Shown one piece after another: positions 37,994 to 57,247 of a stretch of DNA of 64,000 nucleotides. Source of the stretch: Corynebacterium atrinae (lineage in GTDB: Bacteria > Actinomycetota > Actinomycetes > Mycobacteriales > Mycobacteriaceae). Both the position numbers and the translations under genes were made by a program. The notes beneath the pieces are model-generated. The model was given only the letters and a program-made list of their open reading frames with translations. It was not told the origin of the DNA and ran no database searches. Position 1 is the first letter of the stretch; each line of letters begins with the position of its first letter. The stretch is from contig NZ_CP046977.1 in assembly GCF_030408455.1 (NCBI RefSeq), forward strand, positions 124,001 through 188,000, written 5' to 3'.

Positions 37994-38099
37994 GGGCCCG
38001 ATTCTAGTGTGATAGTGACGTAGTTTGATTGCGGTTTGATTGCAGGGGAGGGGCCCGGGTAGGATTCGCAGAGGTCTCACGGTGTCTCATCGTGGGCCG

Positions 38100-41562: not shown

Positions 41563-41638
41563 GCGCCCGTAGCTCAACGGATAGAGCATCTGACTACGGA
41601 TCAGAAGGTTGGGGGTTCGAATCCCTCCGGGCGCACCA
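41563..41638 (+). tRNA. tRNA-Arg (ACG), copy 2
   Basis: A 76-base gene identical to 38193-38268, with anticodon ACG and encoded CCA. Unlike copy 1 it stands alone and is followed at once by a strong terminator. Confidence 0.95.
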
Positions 41639-41787: not shown

Positions 41788-43677
41788 TCAGCCCAGGATG
41801 GGGGCGAAGAAGTCCGCCAGCGCTTGGGTGTCATCCAGCGGTAGAACCGCAGCGACGTACTGGTCCGGACGGACCACGATGACGGCGCCATCGCGGCTGA
41901 TGCCGCGGGCGTCGAAAATGTCTTCTTCTCTCAGCGCGGACCACACGTTTTCCAGGTTCTTGAGCTTGTGCGGTCCGACCTTCGGACGGAAGGCCTCTGG
42001 GGCGTCGGTGACATCAAAATCGTGGTAGTGCTGCTGGTAGATGACCTTGACGTCGAAGTAGGCGTTCTCATCACCTTCGACTGGGGTGTGGGCTCGGACC
42101 GGGGACTCCTCCGACTCATGGAGCCATTGCGCCCAGTCGGTGAGCTTCGAGGGCTGACCCGGTGGTGGGGTATCGGCGAAGGCGTAGATTCGCCACCGGC
42201 CGTCCGCGTAGTGTTGATGGCCCAGATGGAGAACGTTCGCGTCACAGCGGCGCATCGCCCGGTGGGACTTGAAGCGGCGGCCGACTGGGAAGCCGGTGGC
42301 TAGGTCTTGATGCTCGGTGCTACCGGTGATGAGGTTCTCCTCGTAGGTGGTGAGGAACCCGGCGGCGAACTCCTCAGCCTCGACGTAGTACTTCTCGATC
42401 GCGTCTGGATCTTCCAATTCATCGAGCGGAGTGGCCATGAGTGTTGACCATTCCTTGTCGAAGTTGATCAGATTCTGCGCAGCCGGTTGGCGCTCACCCG
42501 AATACGTCTTCAATAGGTCCTCGGAGGCTCGGCCATCAAGGACGTGGCCGAGTTTCCAGCCGATGTTGAAACCGTCCTGCATCGACACGTTCATGCCTTG
42601 GCCGGCCTTTGCGGAGTGGGTATGGCAGGCGTCTCCAGTGAGGAAAATGCGCGGATGTCCATCGGGGTTGATATCAAGATCGACGTCGTCGAAGGCATCG
42701 ACGAGGCGGTGGCCGACCTCGTAGATGGAATGCCAGGCGACCTCCTTAACGTCCACGTAGTACGGGTGAGTGATCTCGTTGGCCTTGCGAATGACAGCTT
42801 CGAGCGGGGTGTTGCGGATGGCGCCTTGGTCGCCAGCTGGCACGACGCCGAGATCGACGTACATGCGGAACAAGTAACCTCCCTCGCGAGGGATGTGCAG
42901 AATCGAGCCGTGCTTCGAGTGGATGGCGCACTTGGTTCGAATGTCCGGGAAGTCACTATCCGCCAGCACATCCATCACGCCCCAAGCATGGTTCGCAGCG
43001 TCTCCCTGGAGCTTGCGGTTGATGGACCGGCGGACCTGGGAACGAGCTCCATCGGAACCGATGACGTACCGAGTGCGGACGAAACGGGAGTACTCCTCCT
43101 CGTCCGGCATGGTGCGCTTGAGTTCCACCGTGACCGGATACTCCTCGTTTTCCGGATCTTCAGAGATCTGCAGGCCAACGAACTCCCAGCCGTAATCCGG
43201 GGTCAAGCGTGACGGAGAGTTGGCCGCGAACCGTGCGAAGTAGTCCAGGACGCGGGCTTGGTTGACAATCAGGTGGGGGAACTCGGAGATCCCGAATTCA
43301 TCGTCGATGGGGCGACCGGTGCGGATGATGTTCTCGGGGTGCTCGGGGTCTTGGTTCCAAAACGACATCTCGGTAATGCGGTACGCCTCGTCGGTGATCT
43401 CGTTCGCGAAACCGAAGGCTTGAAAGGTCTCTACAGAACGGGCCTGGATACCGTCCGCCTGTCCCAAGCCAAGACGATGAGGGCGTCGCTCGACGAGGCG
43501 GGTGTGGACATTCGGAAACATTGACAACTGGGCTGCGGCGATCATGCCAGCGGGACCGGAGCCGATGACGAGGACATCCATGGTGTCAGGCAGTTCCTCG
43601 GGGCGGCTTACGCCGATGCCCGTTGGTGTATGACGTCTGGGGTTTTCGGAGACGTATCCGTAATGATGGAATTGCAT
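41788..43677 (-). CDS. MobA-like FAD-dependent aromatic hydroxylase
   Basis: A 629-residue single-component flavoprotein monooxygenase. The FAD motif GSGPAG is at residues 39-44, the DG motif is YVIGSDGARSQVR, and the GD motif is IFLTGDACHTHSAKAGQGMN. A thioredoxin-like C-terminal domain ends in VVRPDQYVAAVLPL. It strongly resembles 3-hydroxybenzoate 4-hydroxylase MobA in start (MQFH), length and internal motifs such as LGQADGIQARSVETFQAF and SEFPHLIVNQARV. In this locus it may instead make homoprotocatechuate from a hydroxyphenylacetate. A GGAGGTCACC ribosome binding site precedes the ATG. Confidence 0.85.
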   Translation of the reverse strand: MQFHHYGYVSENPRRHTPTGIGVSRPEELPDTMDVLVIGSGPAGMIAAAQLSMFPNVHTRLVERRPHRLGLGQADGIQARSVETFQAFGFANEITDEAYRITEMSFWNQDPEHPENIIRTGRPIDDEFGISEFPHLIVNQARVLDYFARFAANSPSRLTPDYGWEFVGLQISEDPENEEYPVTVELKRTMPDEEEYSRFVRTRYVIGSDGARSQVRRSINRKLQGDAANHAWGVMDVLADSDFPDIRTKCAIHSKHGSILHIPREGGYLFRMYVDLGVVPAGDQGAIRNTPLEAVIRKANEITHPYYVDVKEVAWHSIYEVGHRLVDAFDDVDLDINPDGHPRIFLTGDACHTHSAKAGQGMNVSMQDGFNIGWKLGHVLDGRASEDLLKTYSGERQPAAQNLINFDKEWSTLMATPLDELEDPDAIEKYYVEAEEFAAGFLTTYEENLITGSTEHQDLATGFPVGRRFKSHRAMRRCDANVLHLGHQHYADGRWRIYAFADTPPPGQPSKLTDWAQWLHESEESPVRAHTPVEGDENAYFDVKVIYQQHYHDFDVTDAPEAFRPKVGPHKLKNLENVWSALREEDIFDARGISRDGAVIVVRPDQYVAAVLPLDDTQALADFFAPILG

Positions 43678-43747
43678 GGTGACCTCCTGCGGTGAATCGA
43701 GGGAGAGGTGTGGGACTTCGATCTGGGGCCGGGGCAGTAAAGTGGTG

Positions 43748-43759
43748 GATCGTATACGA
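43748..43759. promoter_or_regulatory. Candidate GntR operator before the monooxygenase
   Basis: GATCGTATACGA contains the perfect palindrome TCGTATACGA (43750-43759), about 70 bases upstream of the hydroxylase start. GATCGTATA recurs on the minus strand at 45242-45234 in the divergent promoter region of the same locus. Confidence 0.5.
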
Positions 43760-43789
43760 AAGTGGAGGCTGCTGAAGGGGGAAGCGTGG

Positions 43790-45151
43790 CTAGCGGCTGA
43801 ACTGGAACTGCCCGCGCGCCTGTTCCTCCTCATGGTCGGGGCCCAGAGGAATGTCGGTGCGATCACGCAACAAGATGGCGGCGGTCAAGCCGACGGTGAC
43901 CATGATGAGCAGGTAGATAGTGACGGACGTAGTGGTGCCGGTTGCCTCCACTAAGGCCGCTGAGATGGACGGGGCGAAGGCGCCACCGAAGATGGAGCCG
44001 AGGGCGTAAGTGACGGACACGCCTGAGAAGCGGATCGAAGCGGGGAATATCTCGGCGTAGGCCGCTGCCTGCTGACCGTAGGTGAGGCCCAGGCCGACGC
44101 TGAGGAAGGACAGGGCCGCGTAAAGGGACGGCAGGCTGCCCGTGTTGATTAGGGGGAACAAGGCCGCGGCCCCAGCTCCGAGAATGAGGTAGCCGACGAT
44201 GTAGGTTTTCCGTCGCCCGAGATAGTCGGAGACCCACCCGGCGAACAGGGTGGAAATACCCCAAATCACGGCAGAGAAGGTGACCGCCAACAGCACATCG
44301 CCGCGCTCTAGGGCCAGACCCTCAGGGTTGGTGGTGTAGTTCTGGACATAGCCGCCGGTAGTCATGTAGCCAACCGTGTTCTGGCCGGCGAAGAGCAGGG
44401 CCGCCACGATGACCAGCGGCGTGTAGCGCTTGAACAGGGTACCGACAGGGTTGGCGGTGGTTTCTTTCCGCTGGGCGATCTCCTCAAACACTGGGGACTC
44501 GTCGACGCCGACGCGAATGAAGTAGCCGATGAAGACGAGCACGATCGACAGAAGGAAGGGCACCCGCCAGCCCCACTCCAAGAATGCGTCACCGGGAGCG
44601 ATGACGTTCATGAGTGCGAGGAGGCCAGATGACATCAGCAGGCCCATCGGGACGCCGACCTGAGGGCCTGCGCCGAAGAGGCCACGCTTGCCCTTGGGGG
44701 CATGTTCTACAGCGAGCAAGACCGCCCCGCCCCATTCTCCGCCTGCGGAAATACCTTGGATGATGCGCAGCAGGATGAGCAGTATCGGTGCGAGGATGCC
44801 AATCGATTCATAGGTGGGCAGCAGGCCAATGAGAGCGGTGGCTCCACCCATGGCGAACAAAGTGACCATGAGGACGGCTCGGCGGCCGTAGCGGTCGCCG
44901 AAATGGCCGGCGAGGAAAGCGCCGAAGGGGCGGAAAAGGAACGAAAGGCCCACCGTCAAAAAGGACACGATGGTAGCTCCGCCGGTGCCGAGCGGGCTGA
45001 ACATCAGCTTGTTGAAGACGAGGCCGGCCGCGGCGGCGTAGAGGAAGTAGTCGTACCACTCGATAGCGGTACCGATAGTGGTGGCGGCGACGACGCGTCG
45101 TTGTTCCCGAGTCGAGCTCACAGGTGGTGTGGGGGTGGTTGGTTGGGGCAT
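43790..45151 (-). CDS. MHS-family MFS transporter (aromatic or carboxylate uptake)
   Basis: A 453-residue, 12-helix transporter of the metabolite:H+ symporter branch. GTAIEWYDYFLYAAAAGLVF at the start, FGDRYGRRAVLM between helices 2 and 3, and the RIIQGISAGGEWGGAVLLAV helix are the usual marks. It probably imports the aromatic substrate of the locus. The ATG at 45151 is chosen because GGAG lies six bases before it; an upstream in-frame ATG has no such site. It diverges from the FAH-RraA gene. Confidence 0.88.
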   Translation of the reverse strand: MPQPTTPTPPVSSTREQRRVVAATTIGTAIEWYDYFLYAAAAGLVFNKLMFSPLGTGGATIVSFLTVGLSFLFRPFGAFLAGHFGDRYGRRAVLMVTLFAMGGATALIGLLPTYESIGILAPILLILLRIIQGISAGGEWGGAVLLAVEHAPKGKRGLFGAGPQVGVPMGLLMSSGLLALMNVIAPGDAFLEWGWRVPFLLSIVLVFIGYFIRVGVDESPVFEEIAQRKETTANPVGTLFKRYTPLVIVAALLFAGQNTVGYMTTGGYVQNYTTNPEGLALERGDVLLAVTFSAVIWGISTLFAGWVSDYLGRRKTYIVGYLILGAGAAALFPLINTGSLPSLYAALSFLSVGLGLTYGQQAAAYAEIFPASIRFSGVSVTYALGSIFGGAFAPSISAALVEATGTTTSVTIYLLIMVTVGLTAAILLRDRTDIPLGPDHEEEQARGQFQFSR

Positions 45152-45286
45152 TTCATCTCCGGAGTGGTTGTGTCGCACATCATGAAGTGTCCAAGTCTGT
45201 GATCTGCAGCACTTGCAGACTTAGGGGGGATAATATACGATCTGAACTCAATTGCAAGGTGTTTTTAATTCCCACAGGGGGTTCCA
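45152..45286. promoter_or_regulatory. Divergent control region of the aromatic locus
   Basis: This 135-base gap must drive the transporter/monooxygenase genes leftward and the hpa run rightward. It contains AAGTCTG (45193-45199) facing CAGACTT (45216-45222) and TATACGATC at 45234-45242, the half site shared with 43748-43757. It is AT-rich compared with its flanks. Confidence 0.6.
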
Positions 45287-46789
45287 TTGACAGTTGCGTC
45301 CCAGTTGCCCATCAATCCGGGCAAAATTATCGCCGTCCACCTGGCCTTCGAATCCCGTGCCGCGCAGCGCGGTCGCCGCCCGAAACAGCCGTCCTACTTC
45401 ATCAAGGCCACCAGCTCGCTGGCACCTTCCGGCGCCGAGGTTGTGCGCCCTGAGGGAACCGAATTGCTCGCCTTTGAGGGGGAAATTGCCCTTGTTATCG
45501 GCGAATCCGCTCGCAACGTCCCTCTGGAGGAGGCGTGGGACCACGTCTCCCATGTCACCGCCTCCAACGACCTTGGTATCTACGACTACCGGGCTCAGGA
45601 CAAGGGCTCTAACACCCGCTCAAAAAGCCGCGATGGGTACACCCCCATTGGTCCGAGGCTTATCGACGCCCGGGTGGTAGATCCCAAGGCCCTGCGTCTG
45701 CGCACCTGGGTCAACGGTGAGTTGGTCCAAGATGACGGCACGGGCGATGAACAGATGATCTTTCCGTTGGCCCAGTTCGTGGCGGATCTCTCTCAACACA
45801 TGACGCTTGAGACCGGGGACGTCATCCTCACCGGCACTCCGGCCGGCTCGACCGTCATCCAACCAGGCGACGTCGTGGAGGTTGAAGTTGACGCCCCCAC
45901 CGCCATGGGTGCGCCCACCTCCGGCAGGCTGCGGACCACCGTGGTCTCCGGTCCTGGGAACTTTGACGAGGGCATCGGCATGTTGCCCGCCATCGATGAC
46001 AAACAGCGCGAGGAGGCCTGGGGGACTCGGGCCGCTGCCGGATTGGCCGAAGACCCGAACGCCATCAGCGACGAGCTGCGCGCCATGTTGGAGGCTATCC
46101 CCACCGCAGGATTGTCCGCCCAGCTGCGTAACCGGGGCCTCAACCAGGTCGTCATCGAGGGCGTTTACCCGCAGGAACGCGGCACCAAGATGGTAGGCAT
46201 CGCCCGTACTCTGCGGTTCCTGCCGGGGCGGGAGGACCTGTTCACCTCCCATGGTGGTGGATTCAACGCCCAGAAGCGCGCCTTCGACGCCGTCCGCCCG
46301 GGTGAGGTCCTGGTGATTGAGGCCCGGGGTGAAGCTGGCTCGGGGACGATGGGAGACATCCTCGCATTGCGCGCCAAGTTCCGTGGCGCCGCCGGTGTGG
46401 TTACCGACGGTTGTGTTCGAGATTACGAGGAGGTTCGCGAGGTCGGTCTGCCGGTGTTTTCCCAAGGGCCTCACCCGGCGGTCCTCGGGCGAAAGCACGT
46501 TCCGTGGGATCACGATCTGGCCATTGCCTGCGGCAACGCCACAGTAGTGCCGGGAGACATCATCGTTGGTGACGATGACGGCGTTATCGTCATCCCACGC
46601 AACCTGGCCGAGGAAATCGCGGCCGCTGCGCTGTCCAAGGAACATGAGGACAGCTGGGTCGCCGAGCGTGTGTCGGAGGGCGGGTCGCTCGACGGGTTGT
46701 TCCCCCCGGTCGGGGAGAACAAGAAGGCTTACCAGGCGTACCTTGCCGAGCACCCGGTTGAGGTACCTCAGCCAGCGCGGAAGGAATGA
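45287..46789 (+). CDS. Fused FAH-domain and RraA-domain protein of homoprotocatechuate breakdown
   Basis: A 500-residue fusion. Residues about 10-235 are a fumarylacetoacetate-hydrolase-fold domain with FEGEIALVIGESARNV (metal Glu), SKSRDGYTPIGPRL and VILTGTPAG. Residues about 285-475 are an RraA/HMG-aldolase-type domain with GVVTDGCVRDYEEV and GDDDGVIVIPRNLAEEIA. Usual HpaG has two FAH domains for decarboxylation of OPET and isomerisation of HHDD; here RraA, a family with known oxaloacetate decarboxylase activity, likely provides the decarboxylase. The TTG start follows an AGGGGG ribosome binding site. The exact split of reactions is inference. Confidence 0.8.
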   Translation: MTVASQLPINPGKIIAVHLAFESRAAQRGRRPKQPSYFIKATSSLAPSGAEVVRPEGTELLAFEGEIALVIGESARNVPLEEAWDHVSHVTASNDLGIYDYRAQDKGSNTRSKSRDGYTPIGPRLIDARVVDPKALRLRTWVNGELVQDDGTGDEQMIFPLAQFVADLSQHMTLETGDVILTGTPAGSTVIQPGDVVEVEVDAPTAMGAPTSGRLRTTVVSGPGNFDEGIGMLPAIDDKQREEAWGTRAAAGLAEDPNAISDELRAMLEAIPTAGLSAQLRNRGLNQVVIEGVYPQERGTKMVGIARTLRFLPGREDLFTSHGGGFNAQKRAFDAVRPGEVLVIEARGEAGSGTMGDILALRAKFRGAAGVVTDGCVRDYEEVREVGLPVFSQGPHPAVLGRKHVPWDHDLAIACGNATVVPGDIIVGDDDGVIVIPRNLAEEIAAAALSKEHEDSWVAERVSEGGSLDGLFPPVGENKKAYQAYLAEHPVEVPQPARKE

Positions 46790-46792
46790 CCG

Positions 46793-47479
46793 ATGACAAC
46801 TGACAACATTCAAGACGCCAACCGGTTGAGTAAGGCCGAGCAAGCCTACGGGTGGATCCGCGCCAGGATTCGCAGTCGCGAATATCCCCCTGGACACCGT
46901 TTGGTTCTCAGTGCCATTGCGGATGAATTCGCGATCAGCCCGGTTCCGGTTCGCGAAGCTATCCGTCAGCTCGAGGCCGAAGGACTGGTCACTTACGAGC
47001 GCAACGTCGGAGCGCGGGTCTCCACTCTGAACCAAGAGGCCTACTTCGAAACAATGGAAACCATCGCGCTCCTGGAGGGGCGAGCCACCGCATTGTCCGT
47101 CCCGCACCTCGGGCCCCCGCAGATAGCCAAGGCCCGGGAGCTCAACGAAAAGATGGAGGCCACGCTCGCGGATTTCGACCCTAAGGCTTTCACTGAACTG
47201 AACTGGAAATTCCACCGGACACTCTTCGGCCGCTGCCCGAACAGTCGGCTACTCGAGCTGCTTTACACCGAGTGGGATCGGCTGGACTACTTCCGAGATT
47301 CCACTTTCCGATTCATCCCACAACGCGCCCACAGCTCCGTGCAGGAGCACGATCAGCTGATCAAGCTCATCGAGGCTGGGGTCGAACCGTCTTATATCGA
47401 ACGCAAGATCCGTGATCACCGACTGGTCACCAGCACCACTTACCGCAGCATCGTTAACTCCACCCAGGACAATCCCTAG
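46793..47479 (+). CDS. GntR-family regulator (FCD subgroup)
   Basis: A 228-residue repressor-type protein. The winged helix is in the first 75 residues (GHRLVLSAIADEFAISPVPV, VREAIRQLEAEGLV), and the C-terminal FCD ligand domain carries metal-binding His such as in NWKFHRTLFGRCPNSRLLEL. FCD regulators typically bind carboxylic acids. It sits inside the hpa operon three bases after the fusion gene and very likely controls it, perhaps through GATCGTATA sites at 43.75 and 45.24 kb. Confidence 0.88.
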   Translation: MTTDNIQDANRLSKAEQAYGWIRARIRSREYPPGHRLVLSAIADEFAISPVPVREAIRQLEAEGLVTYERNVGARVSTLNQEAYFETMETIALLEGRATALSVPHLGPPQIAKARELNEKMEATLADFDPKAFTELNWKFHRTLFGRCPNSRLLELLYTEWDRLDYFRDSTFRFIPQRAHSSVQEHDQLIKLIEAGVEPSYIERKIRDHRLVTSTTYRSIVNSTQDNP

Positions 47480-47488
47480 AGAGACATC

Positions 47489-49012
47489 ATGACTAACAAC
47501 AATGCCGCCATGCCCACCGACCTGCCGGAGGAGATCCGACATTACATCAACGGCGCATTCGTCGATTCCATCGATGGCGACGAATTCGACGTCCTCGACC
47601 CGGTCACGAACCAGAACTACATTAAGGCGGCCTCGGGAAAACCCGCTGACATTGATGCCGCTGTCGCATCCGCCAAGCAGGCCTTTGACGAGGGGCCCTG
47701 GCCGCGCATGCTTCCGCGCGAGCGATCCCGTGTGTTGCACAAGATCGCCGATATCGTCGAGTCTCGGGAGGACACCCTCGCTGCCTGGGAGTCCTTCGAC
47801 TCAGGTTTGCCCATCACCCAGGCCAAGGGCCAGGCCCGTCGAGCTGCCGAGAACTTTCGTTTCTTCGCTGACTTGATCGTCGCCCAGGTGGACGACACCT
47901 TCAAGGTGCCGGGACGTCAGGTCAACTACGTCAACCGCAAACCCATCGGCGTCGCCGGTCTCATTACCCCCTGGAACACCCCGTTCATGCTGGAGTCATG
48001 GAAGCTTGCCCCGGCGATTGCCACCGGCAATACCGTCGTTCTCAAGCCTGCAGAGTTCACCCCACTGTCCGCTCAGCTGTGGGCCGGAATCTTTGAGGAG
48101 GCGGGTCTGCCAAACGGTGTGTTCAACCTAGTCAACGGTTTCGGTGAGGAAGGTTACGCCGGTGATCCGCTGGTCAAGCACCCGGATGTGCCCCTCATCT
48201 CCTTCACCGGCGAGTCCCGAACCGGACAAATCATCTTCGGAAACGCCGCCCCGTACCTCAAGGGCTTGTCGATGGAACTCGGTGGCAAATCCCCTGCCGT
48301 AGTGTTCGACGATGCGGACCTGGAGGAGGCAATCAACGCCACAGTTTTTGGCGTGTTTTCCCTCAACGGGGAGCGATGCACCGCGGGCTCCCGCATTCTG
48401 GTCCAGCGGGGAATCTACGACGAGTTTGTGGAGCGCTACACCGCCCAGGCCAAGCGAGTGAAAGTAGGTCTGCCCTCCGACCGGGCAACCGAGGTTGGCG
48501 CCCTGGTTCACCCGGAGCACTACGACAAGGTCACTTCTTACATCGAGATTGGTAAGTCGGAAGCCACCCTGGCCGCCGGCGGCGAGCGTCCGGCAGGGTT
48601 CGCGGAGGGCAACTTCGTCCAACCCACCGTCTTCGTGGACGTTGCACCAGAGGCACGGATCTTCCAAGAGGAAATCTTCGGCCCCGTCGTGGCTATCACT
48701 CCCTTCGACACAGAGGAGGAGGCCCTCGAGTTAGCGAACAACACCAGGTATGGCTTGGCAGCCTACATCTGGACCTCAGATCTCACGCGCGCGCACAACT
48801 TCGCGCAAAGTGTGGAGGCTGGCATGGTGTGGCTCAATTCCAACAATGTCCGTGACCTGCGTACCCCCTTCGGGGGCGTCAAGGCTTCTGGTCTGGGTCA
48901 CGAGGGTGGCTACCGCTCCATCGACTTCTACACCGACCAGCAAGCTGTCCACATCAACCTGGGCAAGGTCCACAATCCGGTCTTCGGCAAGGCCGTCACT
49001 TCAGATGGTTAG
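47489..49012 (+). CDS. hpaE: 5-carboxymethyl-2-hydroxymuconate semialdehyde dehydrogenase
   Basis: A 507-residue NAD-dependent aldehyde dehydrogenase. The catalytic Cys297 is in SLNGERCTAG and the general base Glu263 in MELGGKSP. The length, and the position immediately before the ring-cleavage dioxygenase gene, fit HpaE, which oxidises the semialdehyde made by HpaD to the dicarboxylate. It is nine bases after the GntR gene with an AGAGA-type ribosome binding site. Confidence 0.88.
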   Translation: MTNNNAAMPTDLPEEIRHYINGAFVDSIDGDEFDVLDPVTNQNYIKAASGKPADIDAAVASAKQAFDEGPWPRMLPRERSRVLHKIADIVESREDTLAAWESFDSGLPITQAKGQARRAAENFRFFADLIVAQVDDTFKVPGRQVNYVNRKPIGVAGLITPWNTPFMLESWKLAPAIATGNTVVLKPAEFTPLSAQLWAGIFEEAGLPNGVFNLVNGFGEEGYAGDPLVKHPDVPLISFTGESRTGQIIFGNAAPYLKGLSMELGGKSPAVVFDDADLEEAINATVFGVFSLNGERCTAGSRILVQRGIYDEFVERYTAQAKRVKVGLPSDRATEVGALVHPEHYDKVTSYIEIGKSEATLAAGGERPAGFAEGNFVQPTVFVDVAPEARIFQEEIFGPVVAITPFDTEEEALELANNTRYGLAAYIWTSDLTRAHNFAQSVEAGMVWLNSNNVRDLRTPFGGVKASGLGHEGGYRSIDFYTDQQAVHINLGKVHNPVFGKAVTSDG

Positions 49013-49057
49013 TCCGTTTCCCATGAGCCCTTCTTCCGCAACCTCGAGGAGATAGTC

Positions 49058-50146
49058 ATGTCAGACCCCACTACATTTACCGCCCCAGATATCCTCCGCT
49101 GCGCCTATATGGAGATCATCGTTACCAACTTGGAGGATTCGCGCCGCTTCTATGTTGATACCCTCGGCCTCGTGGTCACGGAGGAGAATGACCAGGAGAT
49201 TTACCTGCGTACCTACGAGGAGTTCATCCACCACAACCTCGTGTTGCGTCAGGGCCCGGCAGCTGCCGTCGCGGCCTTTTCCTTCCGAGTCCGCTCGCCG
49301 GAGGACGTCGACCGCGCCGAGGAGTGGTACAAAGCTCGCGGTTGTCGCGTGGAGCGCCGCCAGGACGGCTTCGTAAAGGGAATTGGTGACTCCGTTCGCG
49401 TCGAAGACCCGTTGGGGTTCCCCTATGAGTTCTTCCATGACGTCGAGCACGTCGACCGTTTAGCCTGGGATTATCAAATGCACATCCCGGGTGCCCTGGT
49501 CCGGCTCGACCACTTCAACCAGATCACTCCCGACGTACCCGTGGCCGTGGGATACATGGAGGACCTGGGTTTCCGGGTCACGGAGGATATCTCCGACAGT
49601 GACGGCACTGTTTATGCCGCATGGATGCGCCGCAAGCCGACGGTCCACGACACAGCCATGACCGGTGGTGCCGGCCCCCGCATGCACCACATCGCCTTTG
49701 CCACCCACGAGAAGCACAACATCATCGCCATCTGCGACAAGCTCGGTGCCCTGCGAGAATCCGACCGCATCGAGCGCGGGCCGGGCCGACACGGCGTCTC
49801 CAATGCCTTCTACCTTTACCTGCGCGATCCGGACGGGCATCGGGTGGAGATCTACACCCAGGACTACTACACCGGTGACCCGGACAACCCGCGAGTTTCC
49901 TGGGATGTCCACGACAACCAACGCCGCGATTGGTGGGGAACTCCGGTCGTGCCGTCCTGGTACCGCGACGGTTCCCGCGTCCTTGACCTCGACGGAAACG
50001 TTGTCCCGCTCACCGAGCGCACTGATGCCTCTGAACTCGAGGAAACCATCGGGGCCGACGGCTTTTCTTACACCCGGGCTGACCAAGGCACAGAATCCAT
50101 GCCGGAATGGAAGCTGGGCGAGTACAAGCTGGGTCACCAGCTCTAA
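49058..50146 (+). CDS. hpaD: Homoprotocatechuate 2,3-dioxygenase
   Basis: A 362-residue type I extradiol dioxygenase. The metal ligands are His152, His211 and Glu264, and the active-site acid/base pair is His197 and Tyr254. All five match the Brevibacterium fuscum enzyme (His155, His214, Glu267, His200, Tyr257) with a constant shift of three. That enzyme uses iron and its Arthrobacter relative MndD uses manganese, so the metal here cannot be told. It opens 3,4-dihydroxyphenylacetate to the semialdehyde oxidised by HpaE. Confidence 0.95.
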   Translation: MSDPTTFTAPDILRCAYMEIIVTNLEDSRRFYVDTLGLVVTEENDQEIYLRTYEEFIHHNLVLRQGPAAAVAAFSFRVRSPEDVDRAEEWYKARGCRVERRQDGFVKGIGDSVRVEDPLGFPYEFFHDVEHVDRLAWDYQMHIPGALVRLDHFNQITPDVPVAVGYMEDLGFRVTEDISDSDGTVYAAWMRRKPTVHDTAMTGGAGPRMHHIAFATHEKHNIIAICDKLGALRESDRIERGPGRHGVSNAFYLYLRDPDGHRVEIYTQDYYTGDPDNPRVSWDVHDNQRRDWWGTPVVPSWYRDGSRVLDLDGNVVPLTERTDASELEETIGADGFSYTRADQGTESMPEWKLGEYKLGHQL

Positions 50147-50181
50147 GAACGACGCGAAGCATACAAAGAAGGACACGGTAC

Positions 50182-50967
50182 ATGTTGGACAACGAACGCA
50201 TCATCGGCATTGCCGACGAGCTCGCCGCCGCGGAGCGGGACCGCACGACGATCCCGCTACTGTCAGCCCGGCACCCGGAGATGACCGTCGAGGACGCGTA
50301 CGCGGTGCAAAACGAGTGGATGCGACGCGGCATCCAATCCGGGCGGCGCCTCGTTGGCCGCAAGATTGGCCTGACCTCCAAGGTCATGCAGGAAGCCACC
50401 GGCATCACGGAACCCGACTACGGCGCGATCTTCGCCGATATGGTCTTCGAGAACGGTTCCGTCATTGAGCACGGCCGGTTCTCCAACGTGCGCATCGAGG
50501 TAGAGCTGGCCTTCGTCCTCAAAGACCGTCTCGAGGGCCCGGATACCACCATCTTCGACGTCCTCAGAGCCACGGAATACCTCGTTCCCGCTTTGGAGAT
50601 CCTTGCCTCGCGCATCGAAATGCCAGGCCGAACCATCATCGACACCATCAGCGACAATGCCGCAATGGGTGCCATGGTCTACGGCGGCAACCCCGTCGCC
50701 CCAGATGCGGTGGATCTGCGCTGGGTCTCCGCATTGCTCTACCGCAACGAATCGATCGAGGACACCGGGGTCGCTGCGGCCGTCCTCAACCACCCCGCCA
50801 TGGGAGTGGCGTGGCTAGCAAATAAGCTCCACGCCCACGGTGCCGCCATGGAGGCTGGGGACATCATTCTCGCAGGCTCCTTTACCAAGCCGATGTGGGT
50901 TAACCCGGGAGACACCGTCCATGCCGACTTCGGAGATCTAGGAGCCATCACATGCCGTTTCATCTAG
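50182..50967 (+). CDS. hpaH: 2-oxohept-4-ene-1,7-dioate hydratase
   Basis: A 261-residue member of the 4-oxalocrotonate decarboxylase/hydratase family. GRKIGLTSKVMQEATGITEP and the metal-binding Glu pair in VRIEVELAFVLKDRLEGP are typical. It should hydrate the 2-oxo-heptenedioate made by the upstream steps. ATG follows a GAAGGACAC ribosome binding site. The last 16 bases overlap the aldolase gene, giving translational coupling. Confidence 0.9.
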   Translation: MLDNERIIGIADELAAAERDRTTIPLLSARHPEMTVEDAYAVQNEWMRRGIQSGRRLVGRKIGLTSKVMQEATGITEPDYGAIFADMVFENGSVIEHGRFSNVRIEVELAFVLKDRLEGPDTTIFDVLRATEYLVPALEILASRIEMPGRTIIDTISDNAAMGAMVYGGNPVAPDAVDLRWVSALLYRNESIEDTGVAAAVLNHPAMGVAWLANKLHAHGAAMEAGDIILAGSFTKPMWVNPGDTVHADFGDLGAITCRFI

Positions 50968-51746
50968 AACTTCCCCCCACCTTCCCCGAGGTCATCGCCC
51001 AGCGGAAGGCAACCCAGGTGGGCCTGTGGGTGTGCTCCGGTTCCGCCACGGCCGCTGAGATTGTCGCCTCCTCCGGGTGTGATTGGGTGCTCGTCGACGG
51101 AGAGCACTCTCCAATCGGGCTCGAATCCACCCTGGACATTCTTCGGGCGGTGGGTCCCTATCCGGTTACCCCGATCGTCCGGGTCCCGGCTAATGACACC
51201 GTGCTGATCAAGCAGTTTCTCGACCTGGGAGCCCAGAACATCATGGTGCCTATGGTGCACACCGTCGCTGACGCCGAGGTCGCGGTGGCAGCTATGCACT
51301 ACCCGCCACGGGGCGTACGCGGGGTGGGCAGTGCCCTGGCTCGTTCCGCCCGTTGGAACAAGGTGCCGGACTATTTGGGAGCTGCCTCGCAGCACGTCAG
51401 CCTGACTGTTCAGGTGGAGTCCGAGGAATCAGCCGTCAACGCCATGGACATCCTCACCGTCGACGGAGTCGATGCCGTGTTCATCGGTCCCTCCGATCTG
51501 GCGGCATCGATGGGCTTGCTCGGACAGCAGAACCACGAAGACGTCGTCGCACATGTGCTCAATACCATCAAGGCCGCCAACGTCGTCGGTACACCCGTGG
51601 GAGTAAACGCTTTTAACAACGAACAGGCGAAGTACTACATCGATGCCGGTGCGGACTTCGTCGCGGTGGGTGCCGACGTGCAGCTACTCGCCTCCTCAAC
51701 TGCCGCACTCGCCGAAAAATTCGGCGCCTACAACACAAAAAGGTAA
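50952..51746 (+). CDS. hpaI: HpcH/HpaI class II aldolase
   Basis: A 264-residue aldolase. GLWVCSGSATAAEIVASSGC, then LVDGEHSPIGLE with the base His, and PPRGVRGVGSALARSARW with the substrate-binding Arg are the family hallmarks; the metal ligands Glu and Asp are in QVESEESAVNA and IGPSDLAASMG. It should split 4-hydroxy-2-oxoheptanedioate into pyruvate and succinate semialdehyde, ending the pathway. Confidence 0.92.
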   Translation: MPFHLELPPTFPEVIAQRKATQVGLWVCSGSATAAEIVASSGCDWVLVDGEHSPIGLESTLDILRAVGPYPVTPIVRVPANDTVLIKQFLDLGAQNIMVPMVHTVADAEVAVAAMHYPPRGVRGVGSALARSARWNKVPDYLGAASQHVSLTVQVESEESAVNAMDILTVDGVDAVFIGPSDLAASMGLLGQQNHEDVVAHVLNTIKAANVVGTPVGVNAFNNEQAKYYIDAGADFVAVGADVQLLASSTAALAEKFGAYNTKR

Positions 51747-51921
51747 CCCGGACAAGAACGCTGAAGTTGAGGCTTTCAGTGGATGGGCATATGTATGGGC
51801 GCCTGGCTACCCATATACCTAGCCACCCATATGGCTGAGCAAGGGATGCAAGCGAGTGCCTTCGATCCTCGCTACCTCGACCGGAGTCCAAACTTCTCAT
51901 TTACTAGCAAGGAGTGTGTTT
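51747..51921 (+). promoter_or_regulatory. Promoter region of the 2-keto acid decarboxylase with CCCATAT sites
   Basis: This 175-base gap carries clustered related sites: TATGGG at 51794-51799, GGCTA-CCCATATACC-TAGCC at 51805-51824, and AGCC-ACCCATAT-GGCT at 51821-51836. The latter two are dyads that overlap by four bases. They look like adjacent binding sites for one regulator. AAGGAG at 51909-51914 is the ribosome binding site. Confidence 0.5.
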
Positions 51922-53595
51922 ATGCGTATCACCATCGGAGAATTCCTGCTTGACCGGCTCAAGACGGTCGGTATTACTGAAATCATCGGTGTCCCTGGCG
52001 ATTTCAATCTCAGCTTGTTGGAGCAAGTCGATGAGACTGACGGCATTCGGTTCGTCGGTACCTGCAACGAACTCAATGCCGCCTACGCTGCCGACGGTTA
52101 CGCTCGCTCGCGTGGAATTTCCGCTCTGCTGACAACTTACGGTGTGGGTGAACTAAGTGCTCTCAACGGCATCGCCGGTGCTGCTGCGGAGCACGTCCCA
52201 GTCGTCTCCATCGCGGGTTCCCCTCCGCTTTATGCGACGGAGGATCGTTACGCGCTTCATCACACGATGGCTGACGGAAACTTCAGCAACATGCTGGAGA
52301 GCATTGGGCATTTCACCGACGTAGCAGTTCGCCTCACCCCGATGAATGCCGTCGAGGAGATCGACCGTGCGCTGCACACTTGCCTCCGGGAGAAGCGCCC
52401 GGTCCACATTCAGCTGCCCTCGGACATCTCCCACCTGACCGTCGAAGTTCCGGACTCGCCCTTCGACGCTAGGTTGCCTACCAGTGACCCAGAGCGGTTG
52501 GAATCCGCTGCCGAGCGAATCTTGGAGTTGTTCAGCCGCGCCGAACGTCCGGTGATTCTTGCGGACTTGGACGCCGACCGCCACGGCTTCGTTCCCGCTC
52601 TGCAAGCCATTGCGGAGAAGACTCACACTTCCTATGCGCATTTGACCTCCGGTCGGGGAGTGCTGGACGAGCAGCATCCTCTGTACCTCGGCACCTACAA
52701 CGGTGCGGGGTCGCTCCCTGCTGTTCGTGAGGCCGTCGAAAATTCTGACTTTCTGATCACCACCACCCCCCGTTTTATTGAGGTCAATTCCGGCTCGTTT
52801 ACCCATGAACTTCCGGAGGAGGACATCCTTGACTTCGGCGACCAGCACGTGAGCATTGAAGGGGAGCATTACGTAGGCATCACCGGACTCGAACTCCTCG
52901 ACATCCTGTTGGAAAGGATGCCGGGGGCGACTGATGGGAAACTCGAGCCGACAGCGCAACAGGCCGAGTGGATCATAGAACCCAATGCCTCGCTGTCTCA
53001 GGCGAGAATGTGGCCGCGGTTTGCTCGCTTCCTGCGCTCTGATGACGTCGTGATCGCCGATGCCGGTACCTCCAGTATTGGCCTAGGTGCACAGACCTTC
53101 CCCACGAGTAGCAAGTACATCAACTCCTCGATCTGGGGATCCATCGGCTATACCCTGCCCGCACTGCTGGGTAGCCAACTCGCGTCGCCCGAGCGTCGCC
53201 ACATCCTTTTCATCGGTGATGGTTCTTTCCAGATGACCGCGCAGGAGCTTTCAACGATTTTGCGGGAAGACCTGGCGCCGATCATTGTGCTGGTGAATAA
53301 CCGTGGTTACACCATCGAGCGGTTCATTCTCGGAATGAACTCCGGCTACAACGACGTGGCGAATTGGAACTATGGCGAGCTTCCGAAGGTTTTCCACCCG
53401 GGTACCACGATGGTCAGCTACTCGGCGTCCACGGAGAATGAGCTGGAGGAAGCCCTAGCCCGTATCGATGCTTCGGGGGTTGGTGCATTCCTGGAGGTTC
53501 ACTTGGATCCCGAGGATGCTCCAGATGGTTTGAAGGCCTTCGGCCCGATGACCGCCGACTTTGACTACGGCCCGCGCGGTCCCCGCAACCCCTAA
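51922..53595 (+). CDS. Thiamine-diphosphate 2-keto acid decarboxylase (phenylpyruvate/indolepyruvate type)
   Basis: A 557-residue enzyme of the pyruvate/indolepyruvate decarboxylase group. Glu50 is in GTCNELNAAYAADGYA, the His pair His113-His114 is in ALHHTMADGNF, and the cofactor motif is GDGSFQMTAQELSTI...VNNRGYTIE. The HH pair separates it from acetolactate synthases. Proteins of this branch take branched or aromatic 2-keto acids. Next to the homoprotocatechuate genes, 4-hydroxyphenylpyruvate or phenylpyruvate to the arylacetaldehyde is the best guess. Confidence 0.88.
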   Translation: MRITIGEFLLDRLKTVGITEIIGVPGDFNLSLLEQVDETDGIRFVGTCNELNAAYAADGYARSRGISALLTTYGVGELSALNGIAGAAAEHVPVVSIAGSPPLYATEDRYALHHTMADGNFSNMLESIGHFTDVAVRLTPMNAVEEIDRALHTCLREKRPVHIQLPSDISHLTVEVPDSPFDARLPTSDPERLESAAERILELFSRAERPVILADLDADRHGFVPALQAIAEKTHTSYAHLTSGRGVLDEQHPLYLGTYNGAGSLPAVREAVENSDFLITTTPRFIEVNSGSFTHELPEEDILDFGDQHVSIEGEHYVGITGLELLDILLERMPGATDGKLEPTAQQAEWIIEPNASLSQARMWPRFARFLRSDDVVIADAGTSSIGLGAQTFPTSSKYINSSIWGSIGYTLPALLGSQLASPERRHILFIGDGSFQMTAQELSTILREDLAPIIVLVNNRGYTIERFILGMNSGYNDVANWNYGELPKVFHPGTTMVSYSASTENELEEALARIDASGVGAFLEVHLDPEDAPDGLKAFGPMTADFDYGPRGPRNP

Positions 53596-53614
53596 CTCCC
53601 GTCAGGCACAGCAA

Positions 53615-53647
53615 AACCCGTCCCACGCTGACACCGAGGGACGGGTT
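53615..53647. terminator. Bidirectional terminator between decarboxylase and aldehyde dehydrogenase
   Basis: AACCCGTCCC (53615-53624) pairs with GGGACGGGTT (53638-53647). It lies between two convergent genes, with A-rich sequence on its left side and a TTTCTGTTT stretch on its right. Confidence 0.75.
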
Positions 53648-53659
53648 AAGGCTTTCTGT

Positions 53660-55069
53660 TTACCCGCTGATGACCTGCGGCACTCCGAGTGCCTTCAGGC
53701 CTTCGACGCCGAACTCGAGCCCGAAGCCGGAACCCTTGATGCCGCCGAATGGGATGCGGGGGTCGATGCCGCCGTGGTTGTTGATCCACACGGTGCCAGC
53801 CTCGATACCGGCCGCCACTTTCACAGCCCGCTCTCGGTCGGAAGACCAGACCGAGGCGCCCAGCCCGTAGTCCAGGCTGTTGGCATTAGCGATGGCTGCG
53901 TCCAGATCGGTGTAGCGGATGATCGGCAGAACGGGGCCGAATTGCTCCTCGACCACGAGGGGATTGTCGACGTCGATGTCAGAGATCAAGGTGGTCGGGT
54001 AGAAGTACCCCGGGGCATCGCGGTCTGGATCGCCGCCGATAAGCACCCGCGCACCGGACTCTTTGGCGGCTGTGACCAGCCGGTCAACGATGTCGAATTG
54101 CGCCTTGTTCTGCAATGGGCCAAGCACGTTTTGCTCGTCTAGGCCTTCGCCCATCGGCATGTTTTCCGCCACTGCGACGAGGGCTGCGCAGACCTCGTCG
54201 TAGATGGCATCCGGAACGTAGAGCCGCTTGAGGGCGGCGCAGGTTTGCCCGGTGTTGATGAATGCTCCCCAGAACAGGCCTTCGGCGATGGCGTTCGGGT
54301 CGACGTCGTCGAGCACGATGCCGGCGTCGTTGCCGCCGAGTTCGAGCGTGAGGCGCTTGATGGTTCCGGCGGAGGCCTCGATGATCTTCTTACCGGTGGC
54401 AGTGGATCCGGTGAACATGATCTTGCCGATGTCGTCGTGGGTGCTCAGTGCCGCACCGACGTCTCCTTCGCCGGAGACAATGTTGAGTACCCCCGCCGGC
54501 AGGACGGTGTTCAGCACGTGGACGAGCGCGAGCACGCTCAGCGGGGTGTATTCAGACGGCTTAACGACGACCGTGTTTCCCATCCGTAGGGCAGGAGCCA
54601 CCTGCCAGATGGTGATCATCATCGGCCAGTTCCACGGGCCGATGGCGCCGACGACGCCGATGGGGCGGTAGTTGATCACGGCGTGCTTCTCACCATCATC
54701 AACAAGGGTTTCCTCTTTCAACTCGAAGGACGCGGTGGCCTGCATCCAGGCGGTGCACGCCCCTACCTCGAAGCGGGCGTTGGGGCCGTTGAGAGGTTTG
54801 CCTTGCTCGCGGGAGAGCAATTGGGCGAGCGGCTCGGCCGCGGCAGCGATGGCGTCTGCGGCTTTGAACAGGTAGTCACAGCGCTCCTGATCGGTCAGTG
54901 CCGCCCAGTTCTTCTGACTATCGGCGGCGCGCTGAACCGCATCGTTGAGATCCGAAACGGTATGCACAGGGGCACGGCCGACGAGCTCGCCGGTCGCCGG
55001 GTTGAGAATCTCCCGGCCATTGCTGTCTTCGATGGCGGCGAGAAGATCGTCGAACGTTAACTCAGTCAT
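53660..55069 (-). CDS. NAD(P)-dependent aldehyde dehydrogenase
   Basis: A 469-residue aldehyde dehydrogenase with catalytic Cys277 in NTGQTCAALKRLYV and Glu243 in LELGGNDAG. Two roles fit: oxidation of the arylacetaldehyde made by the convergent decarboxylase, or of the succinate semialdehyde made by HpaI. The neighbouring AraC regulator, related in layout to FeaR, favours the arylacetaldehyde. AGGAGGAACC precedes the ATG. A palindrome at 55101-55116 is in its promoter. Confidence 0.88.
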   Translation of the reverse strand: MTELTFDDLLAAIEDSNGREILNPATGELVGRAPVHTVSDLNDAVQRAADSQKNWAALTDQERCDYLFKAADAIAAAAEPLAQLLSREQGKPLNGPNARFEVGACTAWMQATASFELKEETLVDDGEKHAVINYRPIGVVGAIGPWNWPMMITIWQVAPALRMGNTVVVKPSEYTPLSVLALVHVLNTVLPAGVLNIVSGEGDVGAALSTHDDIGKIMFTGSTATGKKIIEASAGTIKRLTLELGGNDAGIVLDDVDPNAIAEGLFWGAFINTGQTCAALKRLYVPDAIYDEVCAALVAVAENMPMGEGLDEQNVLGPLQNKAQFDIVDRLVTAAKESGARVLIGGDPDRDAPGYFYPTTLISDIDVDNPLVVEEQFGPVLPIIRYTDLDAAIANANSLDYGLGASVWSSDRERAVKVAAGIEAGTVWINNHGGIDPRIPFGGIKGSGFGLEFGVEGLKALGVPQVISG

Positions 55070-55100
55070 GGTTCCTCCTGGGTGGTAAGTTTGTCTTCAT

Positions 55101-55116
55101 TGTGTCCTAAGACACA
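55101..55116. promoter_or_regulatory. Palindromic operator TGTGTCCTAAGACACA
   Basis: Six-base arms TGTGTC/GACACA flank CTAA, 32 bases upstream of the aldehyde dehydrogenase start and in the gap shared with the divergent AraC gene. A likely regulator binding site. Confidence 0.5.
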
Positions 55117-55176
55117 TCTTCACCCCATTGAAGAAGAGCGCACGATCATTGCTATTGAGTGTGATGTGGAGGGTTC

Positions 55177-56115
55177 ATGTCCCTATCAGCTCAGTCCTCG
55201 CTGACCCTGGCCGAGTGGCGGGCAGCGGTCGCGTCCCCCTTCGGCTCGTTGCAGGTCAACACCGAGGACCCTGAGGGCTTCCGCGCCGACCTGCGCGTGG
55301 TCACGGTGGGGGACGTTTCCCTATTCGACATGAGGACTCCCGCGCACACCGTCGATCGGATCGACGCCGACATCCCAGGGGACGTCATCCCACATTGCAA
55401 GCTCAGCCTGCAGATGGAGGGGGAATCCACCCTCGCCCAGGATGGGCGACACTGCGTGCTACGACCAGGGGATCTAGCTCTGTATGTCACCCAGCGGCCC
55501 TATCGCTTGTCGTACCCGGGCGCACAGCATTCACTGGTGGTGCATTTCCCGGAAAGCTTCGTGCAGATGACCCCGGATCAGATCGCTCAGGTGACGGCGG
55601 TCCCGATCGCGGGCAACGAGGGCTTGGGGCGGGTGGCCGTGCCGTTGTTCGAACAAATCGCGTTGAACTTCGAGGTGCTCACCGGGCCGTATGCGGGTTC
55701 ATTGCTGCGCTCCGCGCTGGACATGTTGGTGACCGTATTGTCCTCGGAACTCAGTCAAGCGGACGGGCCATTGTCGAATAACCTGCTCTTTCAGCAGGCC
55801 ATCGCCTATATTGACCGCAACTTGGATAACACGGAGCTCAGTCCCCGCATGATCGCCGAGGCGCTTTTCGTCTCGGTGCGGCACCTGCACTCGCAGTTTT
55901 CCTCCAACGGCCTGACCATCAGCGCCTACATCCGCGGCCGTCGGCTGGAGCTGATCCGCCGAGATCTCGCCGATCCTTTGCATGTGTCCGAGTCTATTCA
56001 GTCCATCGGCACCCGCTACGGCCTCTCGGATTCCTCCCAGGTGTCCCGGTTGTTCCGTTCCGAATTTGGGGAGTCACCGAGCGGGTACCGGACCAGGATG
56101 ATGGGCAGCCAGTGA
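55177..56115 (+). CDS. AraC-family regulator
   Basis: A 312-residue protein with an N-terminal AraC-binding-2-like ligand domain (about residues 20-190) and a C-terminal pair of helix-turn-helix motifs (LSPRMIAEALFVSVRHLHSQ and GTRYGLSDSSQVSRLFRSEF). The domain layout is that of FeaR and NitR, activators of arylacetaldehyde and nitrile metabolism. It diverges from the aldehyde dehydrogenase gene and probably controls it. The TGA stop overlaps the first base of a large inverted repeat. Confidence 0.88.
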   Translation: MSLSAQSSLTLAEWRAAVASPFGSLQVNTEDPEGFRADLRVVTVGDVSLFDMRTPAHTVDRIDADIPGDVIPHCKLSLQMEGESTLAQDGRHCVLRPGDLALYVTQRPYRLSYPGAQHSLVVHFPESFVQMTPDQIAQVTAVPIAGNEGLGRVAVPLFEQIALNFEVLTGPYAGSLLRSALDMLVTVLSSELSQADGPLSNNLLFQQAIAYIDRNLDNTELSPRMIAEALFVSVRHLHSQFSSNGLTISAYIRGRRLELIRRDLADPLHVSESIQSIGTRYGLSDSSQVSRLFRSEFGESPSGYRTRMMGSQ

Positions 56116-57210: not shown

Positions 57211-57247
57211 CTGACAAGTGTGGCACAACGCGACTACGCTCACCGGT

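Follow-up and report, generated by a model that had tools for sequence, protein, structure and literature searches.

Organization of the island

A stretch of 64,000 nucleotides (nt) from the genome of Corynebacterium atrinae (NZ_CP046977.1, positions 124,001 to 188,000), hereafter the window, contains at positions 41788–56115 an island of genes for the breakdown of homoprotocatechuate, which lies between a tRNA-Arg (acg) gene on the plus strand (41563..41638, ARAGORN) and a gene of the prephenate dehydrogenase family (56203–57276). Two genes on the minus strand encode a MobA-like single-component FAD hydroxylase, a candidate arylacetate ring hydroxylase (41788..43686; best PDB match 2dkh, 584 bits), and an MFS transporter of the metabolite:H+ symporter type, a candidate for arylacetate uptake (43790..45178; TIGR00883, 375 bits against a cut-off of 443). 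Divergent from them is a plus-strand row encoding a fusion of fumarylacetoacetate hydrolase (FAH) and RraA domains, the counterpart of HpaG (45287..46789; PF01557 and PF03737; PRK12764, 799 bits, over cut-off), a GntR/FCD regulator (46793..47479; PF00392 and PF07729), the CHMS dehydrogenase HpaE (47489..49012; TIGR02299, 651 bits, over cut-off), the homoprotocatechuate 2,3-dioxygenase HpaD (49058..50146; TIGR02295, 415 bits, over cut-off), the 2-oxo-hept-4-ene-1,7-dioate hydratase HpaH (50182..50967; TIGR02312, 364 bits, over cut-off), and an HpaI-like aldolase (50952..51746; TIGR02311, 289 bits, the best family, below its cut-off of 369). After HpaI come a thiamine diphosphate (ThDP)-dependent 2-keto acid decarboxylase on the same strand, proposed to act on (4-hydroxy)phenylpyruvate (51922..53595; PF02776/PF00205/PF02775), a convergent aldehyde dehydrogenase on the minus strand, proposed to act on arylacetaldehydes in the role of PadA/FeaB (53660..55069; PF00171, 474 bits), and a FeaR-type AraC-family regulator on the plus strand (55177..56115; PRK09685 FeaR, matched along almost its full length at 145 bits, cut-off 199).

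An initial annotation, made from the letters of the window, had listed nearly this set of genes. Its HpaD, HpaE and HpaH steps pass their NCBIfam cut-offs, and its FAH-RraA fusion, hydroxylase, transporter, GntR regulator, decarboxylase, second aldehyde dehydrogenase and AraC regulator were each recovered by the family matches given above; the HpaI step holds as a best-family assignment at a score short of the cut-off.

We read the island as an actinobacterial-type homoprotocatechuate meta-cleavage operon whose last same-strand gene encodes an arylpyruvate decarboxylase feeding it a tyrosine-derived flow, and give this reading a probability of roughly 0.78. The geometry of the row is one part of the case. 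The genes from the FAH-RraA fusion to HpaI follow one another with intergenic gaps of −16 to 45 nt, and the whole arrangement has a close counterpart in Corynebacterium testudinoris. Of ten island proteins compared between the two species, nine show 92–97% identity, and the AraC regulator shows 88%. The decarboxylase follows HpaI on the same strand in both species, at 175 nt in the window versus 54 nt in C. testudinoris. About 120 nt of the longer gap (51747–51921) have no counterpart in C. testudinoris and carry inverted and direct repeats of the type CCCATAT; a 20-base piece of this repeat stretch occurs once in the window. The decarboxylase start at 51922 was set by conservation in the alignment, and both this start and the purine-rich stretch 5′ of it agree between the two species. 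The 54-nt gap and these matching signals argue that the hpa row ends with the decarboxylase gene. Counts of promoter-like sites (5, versus 3.6 in shuffled sequence) and terminator-like sites (7 versus 10.9) gave no clear signal.

The cleavage core and the FAH-RraA fusion

HpaD matches the homoprotocatechuate 2,3-dioxygenase structure 1q0c over its full length at 594 bits, versus 96 bits for the catechol 2,3-dioxygenase 1mpy. The HpaG counterpart consists of one FAH domain joined to an RraA domain rather than of two FAH domains. Its FAH part is nearest to HpaG/HpcE (1gtt), and its RraA domain retains a G-x-x-R-D stretch that is present in the aligned RraA and aldolase structures and to which we presume a functional role. 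Both domains are present in all 120 fusion relatives among the matches listed; some of these are named homoprotocatechuate bifunctional isomerase/decarboxylase, so the fusion is already represented in databases. It is predicted to act as the OPET decarboxylase/HHDD isomerase, and perhaps performs the HpaF step as well.

This last suggestion arises from the distribution of CHMI (HpaF, PF02962), which was found in none of 181 Corynebacterium genomes (C. atrinae and 180 others drawn evenly from the genus), a set that holds no positive control for it. In a control search with PF02962 of ten genomes, four from related loci and six of Corynebacterium, CHMI was found in all three proteobacterial genomes and was not found in the six Corynebacterium genomes or in a Leucobacter metagenome assembly, which also has the FAH-RraA fusion. 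HpaD was seen in two of the three CHMI-bearing genomes (L193 and L198, described below); the third, that of P. xenovorans LB400, reportedly has the pathway. Since CHMI was not detected here and accompanies HpaG elsewhere, the fusion may carry out more steps than HpaG does. An isomerase that has diverged beyond the reach of PF02962 is a possible alternative. No report linking RraA, fumarylacetoacetate hydrolase and oxaloacetate decarboxylase was found in open-access holdings. Judged by family matches, succinate-semialdehyde dehydrogenase is not the best assignment for any island gene.

The decarboxylase, the aldehyde dehydrogenase and their regulator

The decarboxylase has all three ThDP domains and resembles the IpdC family over its full length, scoring 464 bits, far below the IpdC equivalog cut-off of 946. 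Its best PDB scores are to branched-chain and alpha-keto acid decarboxylases (398–392 bits), yeast pyruvate decarboxylase (PDC, 387 bits) and indolepyruvate decarboxylase (IPDC, 385 bits), which by sequence places it in the KdcA/PDC/IPDC family. The aldehyde dehydrogenase passes none of the NCBIfam equivalog cut-offs among the 25 models shown, the two StyD models giving 377 bits (cut-off 850) and 349 bits (cut-off 800). It is 68% identical to a protein of plasmid pTC2 annotated as maoB/feaB phenylacetaldehyde dehydrogenase, and we propose that it acts like FeaB/PadA; because of the StyD scores we do not file it as one. The AraC protein, which appears closest to FeaR, is divergent from the aldehyde dehydrogenase gene across an intergenic region of 107 nt and is its putative partner regulator.

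Ring hydroxylation

The hydroxylase of the island passes the NCBIfam cut-off for the phenol 2-monooxygenase subfamily (964 against 560 bits). Among solved relatives, MobA, a 3-hydroxybenzoate 4-hydroxylase (2dkh), scores 584 bits and phenol hydroxylase 357 bits. The residues D, H, K and Y at MobA positions 75, 135, 247 and 271, which we take to be the carboxylate- and phenol-contact residues, are conserved in all 36 rows of an alignment of the window protein with 35 open reading frames (ORFs) of more than 450 aa from other loci. Given the scores and the kept contact residues, identity as a plain phenol hydroxylase was rejected. The ORF is listed from 43866, where it overlaps the transporter; the start at 43686, our choice, fits the family better. 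Relatives about 65% identical occur in Arthrobacter, Kocuria, Rothia and Nesterenkonia among the best 120 of 7988 matches. No report of a "3-hydroxyphenylacetate 4-hydroxylase" was found in open-access holdings.

The initial annotation had also stated that the classical two-component HpaBC hydroxylase is not in the window. This is correct for the window; for the organism, absence of an HpaBC-like pair was rejected, because an HpaB-like oxygenase gene is found at C1:1959498-1961102 with a flavin reductase gene directly upstream. The HpaB-like protein scores 674 bits against the HpaB-2 cut-off of 885, and its nearest structure is 4oo2, named chlorophenol-4-monooxygenase, at 763 bits versus 629 for HpaB structures. 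At E≤1e-60, HpaB occurs in ten of the 181 genomes, five of which have HpaD and five of which do not.

Distribution and gene neighborhoods within Corynebacterium

Across the 181 genomes, HpaD and the FAH-RraA fusion are each present in 38, the MobA-like hydroxylase in 46, the decarboxylase in 31 (counted as present at ≥61% identity), the aldehyde dehydrogenase in 41 (E≤1e-150), and PaaA/C-type genes in 43. A decarboxylase search at E≤1e-80 matched 44 genomes; matches of 35–40% identity, the sole kind of match in 13 genomes, were set aside as another subfamily. The genes shared with HpaD are the MobA-like hydroxylase and the fusion (37 genomes each), the aldehyde dehydrogenase (29), PaaA/C (27), the decarboxylase (22) and HpaB (5). 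The clustering of the core is far beyond chance: in 37 of the 38 HpaD-bearing genomes the MobA-like gene shares a contig with HpaD at a distance of no more than about 7 kb, and the sole genome without it is 53% complete. Decarboxylase and HpaD occur together in 22 genomes against 6.5 expected, with a Fisher p of 1.6e-11 in a calculation that ignores kinship among genomes. The aldehyde dehydrogenase accompanies HpaD in 29 of 38 genomes, within about 10 kb in 22 of those 29, and the decarboxylase in 25 of 31. What is observed for the island genes is that they are present, how they are ordered and oriented, which families they belong to, and how far they are conserved and occur together.

The immediate neighbors of the decarboxylase point to aromatic amino acids. 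An AroT/HisC-type aminotransferase gene lies ≤110 nt away in 19 of the 31 loci and at 2.9 kb in one more, a PheP/AroP-type permease gene adjoins it in 14, and one or the other is adjacent in 22. The permease of Corynebacterium phocae (L093) has phenylalanine transporter and AroP as its best NCBIfam names, both below cut-off. An aldehyde dehydrogenase gene is within 5 kb in eight of the 31 loci. A comparison of gene neighborhoods across the genus, which the initial annotation had put forward as a check, therefore speaks for the connection, both in the 22 loci with AroT/PheP-type neighbors and in the 22 observed versus 6.5 expected genomes with decarboxylase and HpaD. The modules are most complete in Corynebacterium mayonis (L085) and C. 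phocae (L093), where hydroxylase, transporter, hpa core, succinate-semialdehyde dehydrogenase, regulator, aldehyde dehydrogenase, aminotransferase, decarboxylase and permease all fall within one 20-kb stretch. HpaI is listed for C. phocae (L190) and not for C. mayonis, where the ORF filter may have dropped it. HpaB was not found in either species at the threshold given above. Since both carry these modules without it, the MobA-like enzyme seems able to serve a tyrosine route. As the constant companion of HpaD, on Rhodococcus and Paenarthrobacter plasmids too, this enzyme may be the one that more generally produces homoprotocatechuate, with 3- or 4-hydroxyphenylacetate as its substrate.

In C. 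atrinae itself the AroT/HisC-type aminotransferase gene (36965..38008, minus strand; PRK03321, 508 bits, over cut-off; hisC, 278 bits, just over cut-off) is separated from the decarboxylase by 13.8 kb on its left side, past MgtE-type and sodium:sulfate-symporter-type genes. It is the single copy in the genome at E≤1e-40 and is likely a tyrosine/phenylalanine transaminase. We take it to be the same gene as aroT of Corynebacterium glutamicum. The AroT protein of that species accepts 4-hydroxyphenylpyruvate, according to the available part of the report (PMC11971909). Among 24 genomes searched, 19 of them with the decarboxylase, the best aminotransferase match adjoins the decarboxylase in 12 and lies at 2.9 kb in one; in C. 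phocae (G170) the copy beside the decarboxylase is the second-best match, and in five genomes the best match is apart from the decarboxylase (C. atrinae, G000; C. testudinoris, G169; G154; G138; G094).

The neighborhood of HisC/AroT, MgtE, DASS and TyrA genes that spans 36965–57276 in the window also occurs with the decarboxylase in Corynebacterium flavescens (L181) and Corynebacterium phoceense (L188), and no hpa gene was recognized within 10 kb of the decarboxylase in these two. Because of this shared neighborhood without hpa genes, the decarboxylase locus of C. atrinae may be the older one, with the hpa block inserted into it later.

A different supply of arylacetaldehyde is suggested in five of 35 hpa-centered stretches (L074, L075, L076, L080 and L100), where the hpa core has close by a permease gene and a gene for a flavin amine oxidase (PF01593, 217 bits), as in the published cluster of Corynebacterium aurimucosum.

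Linkage beyond the genus

Among the best 80 named loci of a cross-genus scan made with the decarboxylase alignment, beyond which more loci exist, hpa genes were recognized beside the decarboxylase in four. In Candidatus Leucobacter sulfamidivorax (L175) the decarboxylase is directly before FAH-RraA; C. phocae (L190) is the second; in Gluconacetobacter sacchari (L193) it stands beside HpaB-, HpaA-, HpaD- and HpaG-type genes, and in Neorhizobium (L198) beside HpaB-, HpaD-, HpaF- and HpaG-type genes. Hidden Markov model scans of L193 and L198 place HpaD over its cut-off in both, and give HpaB and the HpaG C-terminal family (both loci), HpaA (L193) and CHMI (L198) as best families below the NCBIfam cut-offs. 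With the window, C. testudinoris and C. mayonis, seven loci have hpa genes no more than 10 kb from the decarboxylase. A tree was built from 50 rows picked by hand from the genus and cross-genus sets, with all seven hpa-linked rows included. On it the linkage requires six changes, all forced by starred branches, so that the joining of the decarboxylase to hpa genes looks repeated. A link scattered in this way would be expected from several joining events, or from joining followed by loss; the tree has some long, uncertain branches.

The 18 Acinetobacter loci among the best 80 (L214, L216–L231 and L236) have an AroP-type permease near the decarboxylase in every case and an aldehyde dehydrogenase in 14; this row is conserved in Acinetobacter and is possibly the same arylpyruvate unit. 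On plasmids, 39 decarboxylase records were matched, all at less than 60% identity.

Proposed route and alternative readings

The substrates, the regulation and the direction of flow throughout the route that follows are what we infer from the genes. Tyrosine would be converted to 4-hydroxyphenylpyruvate by the AroT-type aminotransferase (36965–38008), 4-hydroxyphenylpyruvate to 4-hydroxyphenylacetaldehyde by the decarboxylase (51922–53595), and this to 4-hydroxyphenylacetate by the aldehyde dehydrogenase (53660–55069). Hydroxylation to homoprotocatechuate would fall to the HpaBC-like pair elsewhere in the genome, to the MobA-like enzyme of the island, or to both, after which HpaD, HpaE, the FAH-RraA fusion, HpaH and HpaI would yield pyruvate and succinate semialdehyde. 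The initial annotation had proposed a possible complete route within one island, which does not hold: the likely aminotransferase is 13.8 kb away, the HpaBC-like pair lies elsewhere, and HpaF was found in none of the 181 genomes. Its joining of the two units fares better, since operon geometry, neighbors, co-occurrence and the linkage in other genera and another phylum make it well supported that the decarboxylase and aldehyde dehydrogenase would feed the homoprotocatechuate genes. The branch from phenylpyruvate toward homoprotocatechuate is doubtful, because phenylacetate bears no hydroxyl group and the genome holds PaaA/PaaC-type genes (C1:2662014-2664055); the Paa route is the more likely destination of phenylacetate made from phenylalanine.

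Several observations weigh against the main reading. HpaD is missing from nine of the 31 decarboxylase genomes, and both HpaD and PaaA/C from seven; conversely, 16 of the 38 HpaD genomes have no decarboxylase. Where both are present, they lie within 10 kb in four of 22 genomes and at about 14–16 kb in four more. Three of the 31 loci (L127–L129) have none of the expected neighbors nearby. A promoter could reside among the additional repeats of the 175-nt gap. When the labels of the tree are shuffled, the mean is 6.7 changes, and 150 of 500 shufflings score as low as the observed six, so that the hpa link is scattered rather than inherited. The second aldehyde dehydrogenase, which passes no equivalog cut-off shown, could instead be a succinate-semialdehyde dehydrogenase. 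The decarboxylases of C. mayonis and C. phocae each have one stop flagged inside the matched range, with open frames of 559 aa in both. The pocket residues of the decarboxylase, compared by eye in printed alignments, give no clear answer as to substrate, and among solved structures it matches branched-chain and pyruvate decarboxylases best, IPDC scoring only slightly lower.

The alternative that survives best, which we consider possible at clearly less than even odds, holds that the entry substrate of the island is 3-hydroxyphenylacetate (or 3-hydroxybenzoate), hydroxylated by the MobA-like enzyme, and that the arylpyruvate branch was added separately and later. MobA, its nearest solved relative, is a 3-hydroxybenzoate 4-hydroxylase; the MobA-like gene is present in 37 of 38 HpaD genomes and HpaB in five; and the same gene order exists without an annotated decarboxylase on Rhodococcus and Paenarthrobacter plasmids. 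However, C. mayonis and C. phocae unite aminotransferase, decarboxylase, permease, dehydrogenase and hpa core in the absence of HpaB. The two proposals are not exclusive.

Slightly less probable still is a general Ehrlich unit for aromatic amino acids, with phenylacetate (for Paa) or excreted arylacetate or indoleacetate as its main product, whose position after HpaI is a minor or accidental link to homoprotocatechuate cleavage. It would explain the 18 of 22 genomes in which decarboxylase and HpaD are separated by over 10 kb or do not share a contig, the PaaA/C-type genes in 20 of 31 decarboxylase genomes, C. atrinae included, and the nine decarboxylase genomes that lack HpaD. Against this stand the 54-nt same-strand junction with HpaI in C. 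testudinoris and the recurrence of the decarboxylase next to hpa genes in lineages that are not related, an HpaB-type gene being among them in two cases. The Ehrlich unit is partly compatible with a tyrosine-fed operon, as the same enzymes may serve both.

A protein of the Glu/Leu/Phe/Val dehydrogenase family (PF00208), about 450–480 aa long with extra N-terminal sequence, is encoded near the decarboxylase in three relatives (L104:2878-4263, L107:7593-8948 and L108:12620-14068), with a fragment in L130. The genomes concerned are G154, G138 and G094, and G045 for the fragment; the G154 protein has its best solved matches in leucine dehydrogenases and a family member with a generic name, and its best NCBIfam hit is tryptophan dehydrogenase. 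This leucine-dehydrogenase-like neighbor, a further point against our reading, leaves branched-chain substrates as a possibility for the decarboxylase. Activity on branched-chain or aliphatic keto acids in the manner of KdcA/KivD, which would fit this neighbor and the highest PDB scores (PDC and IPDC being close behind), is nonetheless improbable given the adjacent AroT/HisC-type aminotransferase and PheP/AroP-type permease and an hpa linkage with no evident use for aliphatic aldehydes.

Relation to known pathways

A wider reconstruction, which we offer tentatively and at somewhat below even odds, is a remodeled actinobacterial pathway in which a single-component MobA-type flavoprotein is the missing hydroxylase that turns (hydroxy)phenylacetates into homoprotocatechuate, the RraA domain replaces HpaF, the second half of HpaG or both, and the arylacetaldehyde entry is swappable, amine oxidase or arylpyruvate decarboxylase having been joined to the core several times independently. 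Plasmids of Rhodococcus sp. NBC_00297 (L256) and Paenarthrobacter aurescens TC1 (pTC2, L259) have the gene order of the window from the MobA-like hydroxylase through HpaI, with the hydroxylase 61% identical and a close aldehyde dehydrogenase 68–71% identical. These stretches differ from the window in having no annotated decarboxylase; that of Rhodococcus has a primary-amine oxidase and a permease, and that of pTC2 has amino acid permeases. Plasmid-borne clusters of Pantoea and Erwinia of the E. coli type (HpaR, G, E, D, F, H, I, X, A, B, C) have the HpaD, HpaE, HpaH and HpaI steps in common with the window, with HpaD 75–77% identical, but contain CHMI, an HpaG of 426–427 aa and HpaBC, where the window has the FAH-RraA fusion and the MobA-like hydroxylase, and no CHMI was found.

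Among the closest described precedents, published in 2010, is the hpa cluster of Corynebacterium aurimucosum ATCC 700975, which, as far as the available part of its report describes it, comprises hpaG, a regulator, hpaE, hpaD, hpaH, hpaI and the phenylacetaldehyde dehydrogenase gene padA (PMC2830990). Like the window, it also has a second regulatory gene; unlike the island, where a decarboxylase takes the place of the amine oxidase and no gabD2 is present, it has an amine oxidase (hpaY) and a permease (hpaX) that feed arylacetaldehyde, and gabD2 within the cluster. The same source assigns hpaF to cauri_0890, outside the cluster; no CHMI was found in our 181 genomes, which may or may not include C. 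aurimucosum.

Taken together, the amine-fed Corynebacterium cluster and a route from tyrosine to homoprotocatechuate are already known, and what is new here is the proposed decarboxylase-fed arrangement. No paper tying an arylpyruvate decarboxylase to homoprotocatechuate genes was found in a search of titles and abstracts in which subscription journals were barely covered. Sparnins and Chapman reportedly described tyrosine catabolism via homoprotocatechuate in Gram-positive bacteria in 1976, a route which, like the one proposed here, leads from tyrosine through 4-hydroxyphenylacetate to homoprotocatechuate. Their work is cited in the available parts of two Arthrobacter reports, one on Arthrobacter sp. 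Rue61a, which grows on tyrosine and 4-hydroxyphenylacetate (PMC3534580), the other on Arthrobacter arilaitensis, which uses tyrosine and in which, by that part of the 2010 text, the genes for 4-hydroxyphenylpyruvate oxidation and 4-hydroxyphenylacetate hydroxylase were not located (PMC2991359). The island and its relatives provide candidates for both kinds of step, and a candidate for the first steps of the Gram-positive tyrosine route of the 1970s. In these genomes the absence of CHMI can also be weighed against the presence of the FAH-RraA fusion.

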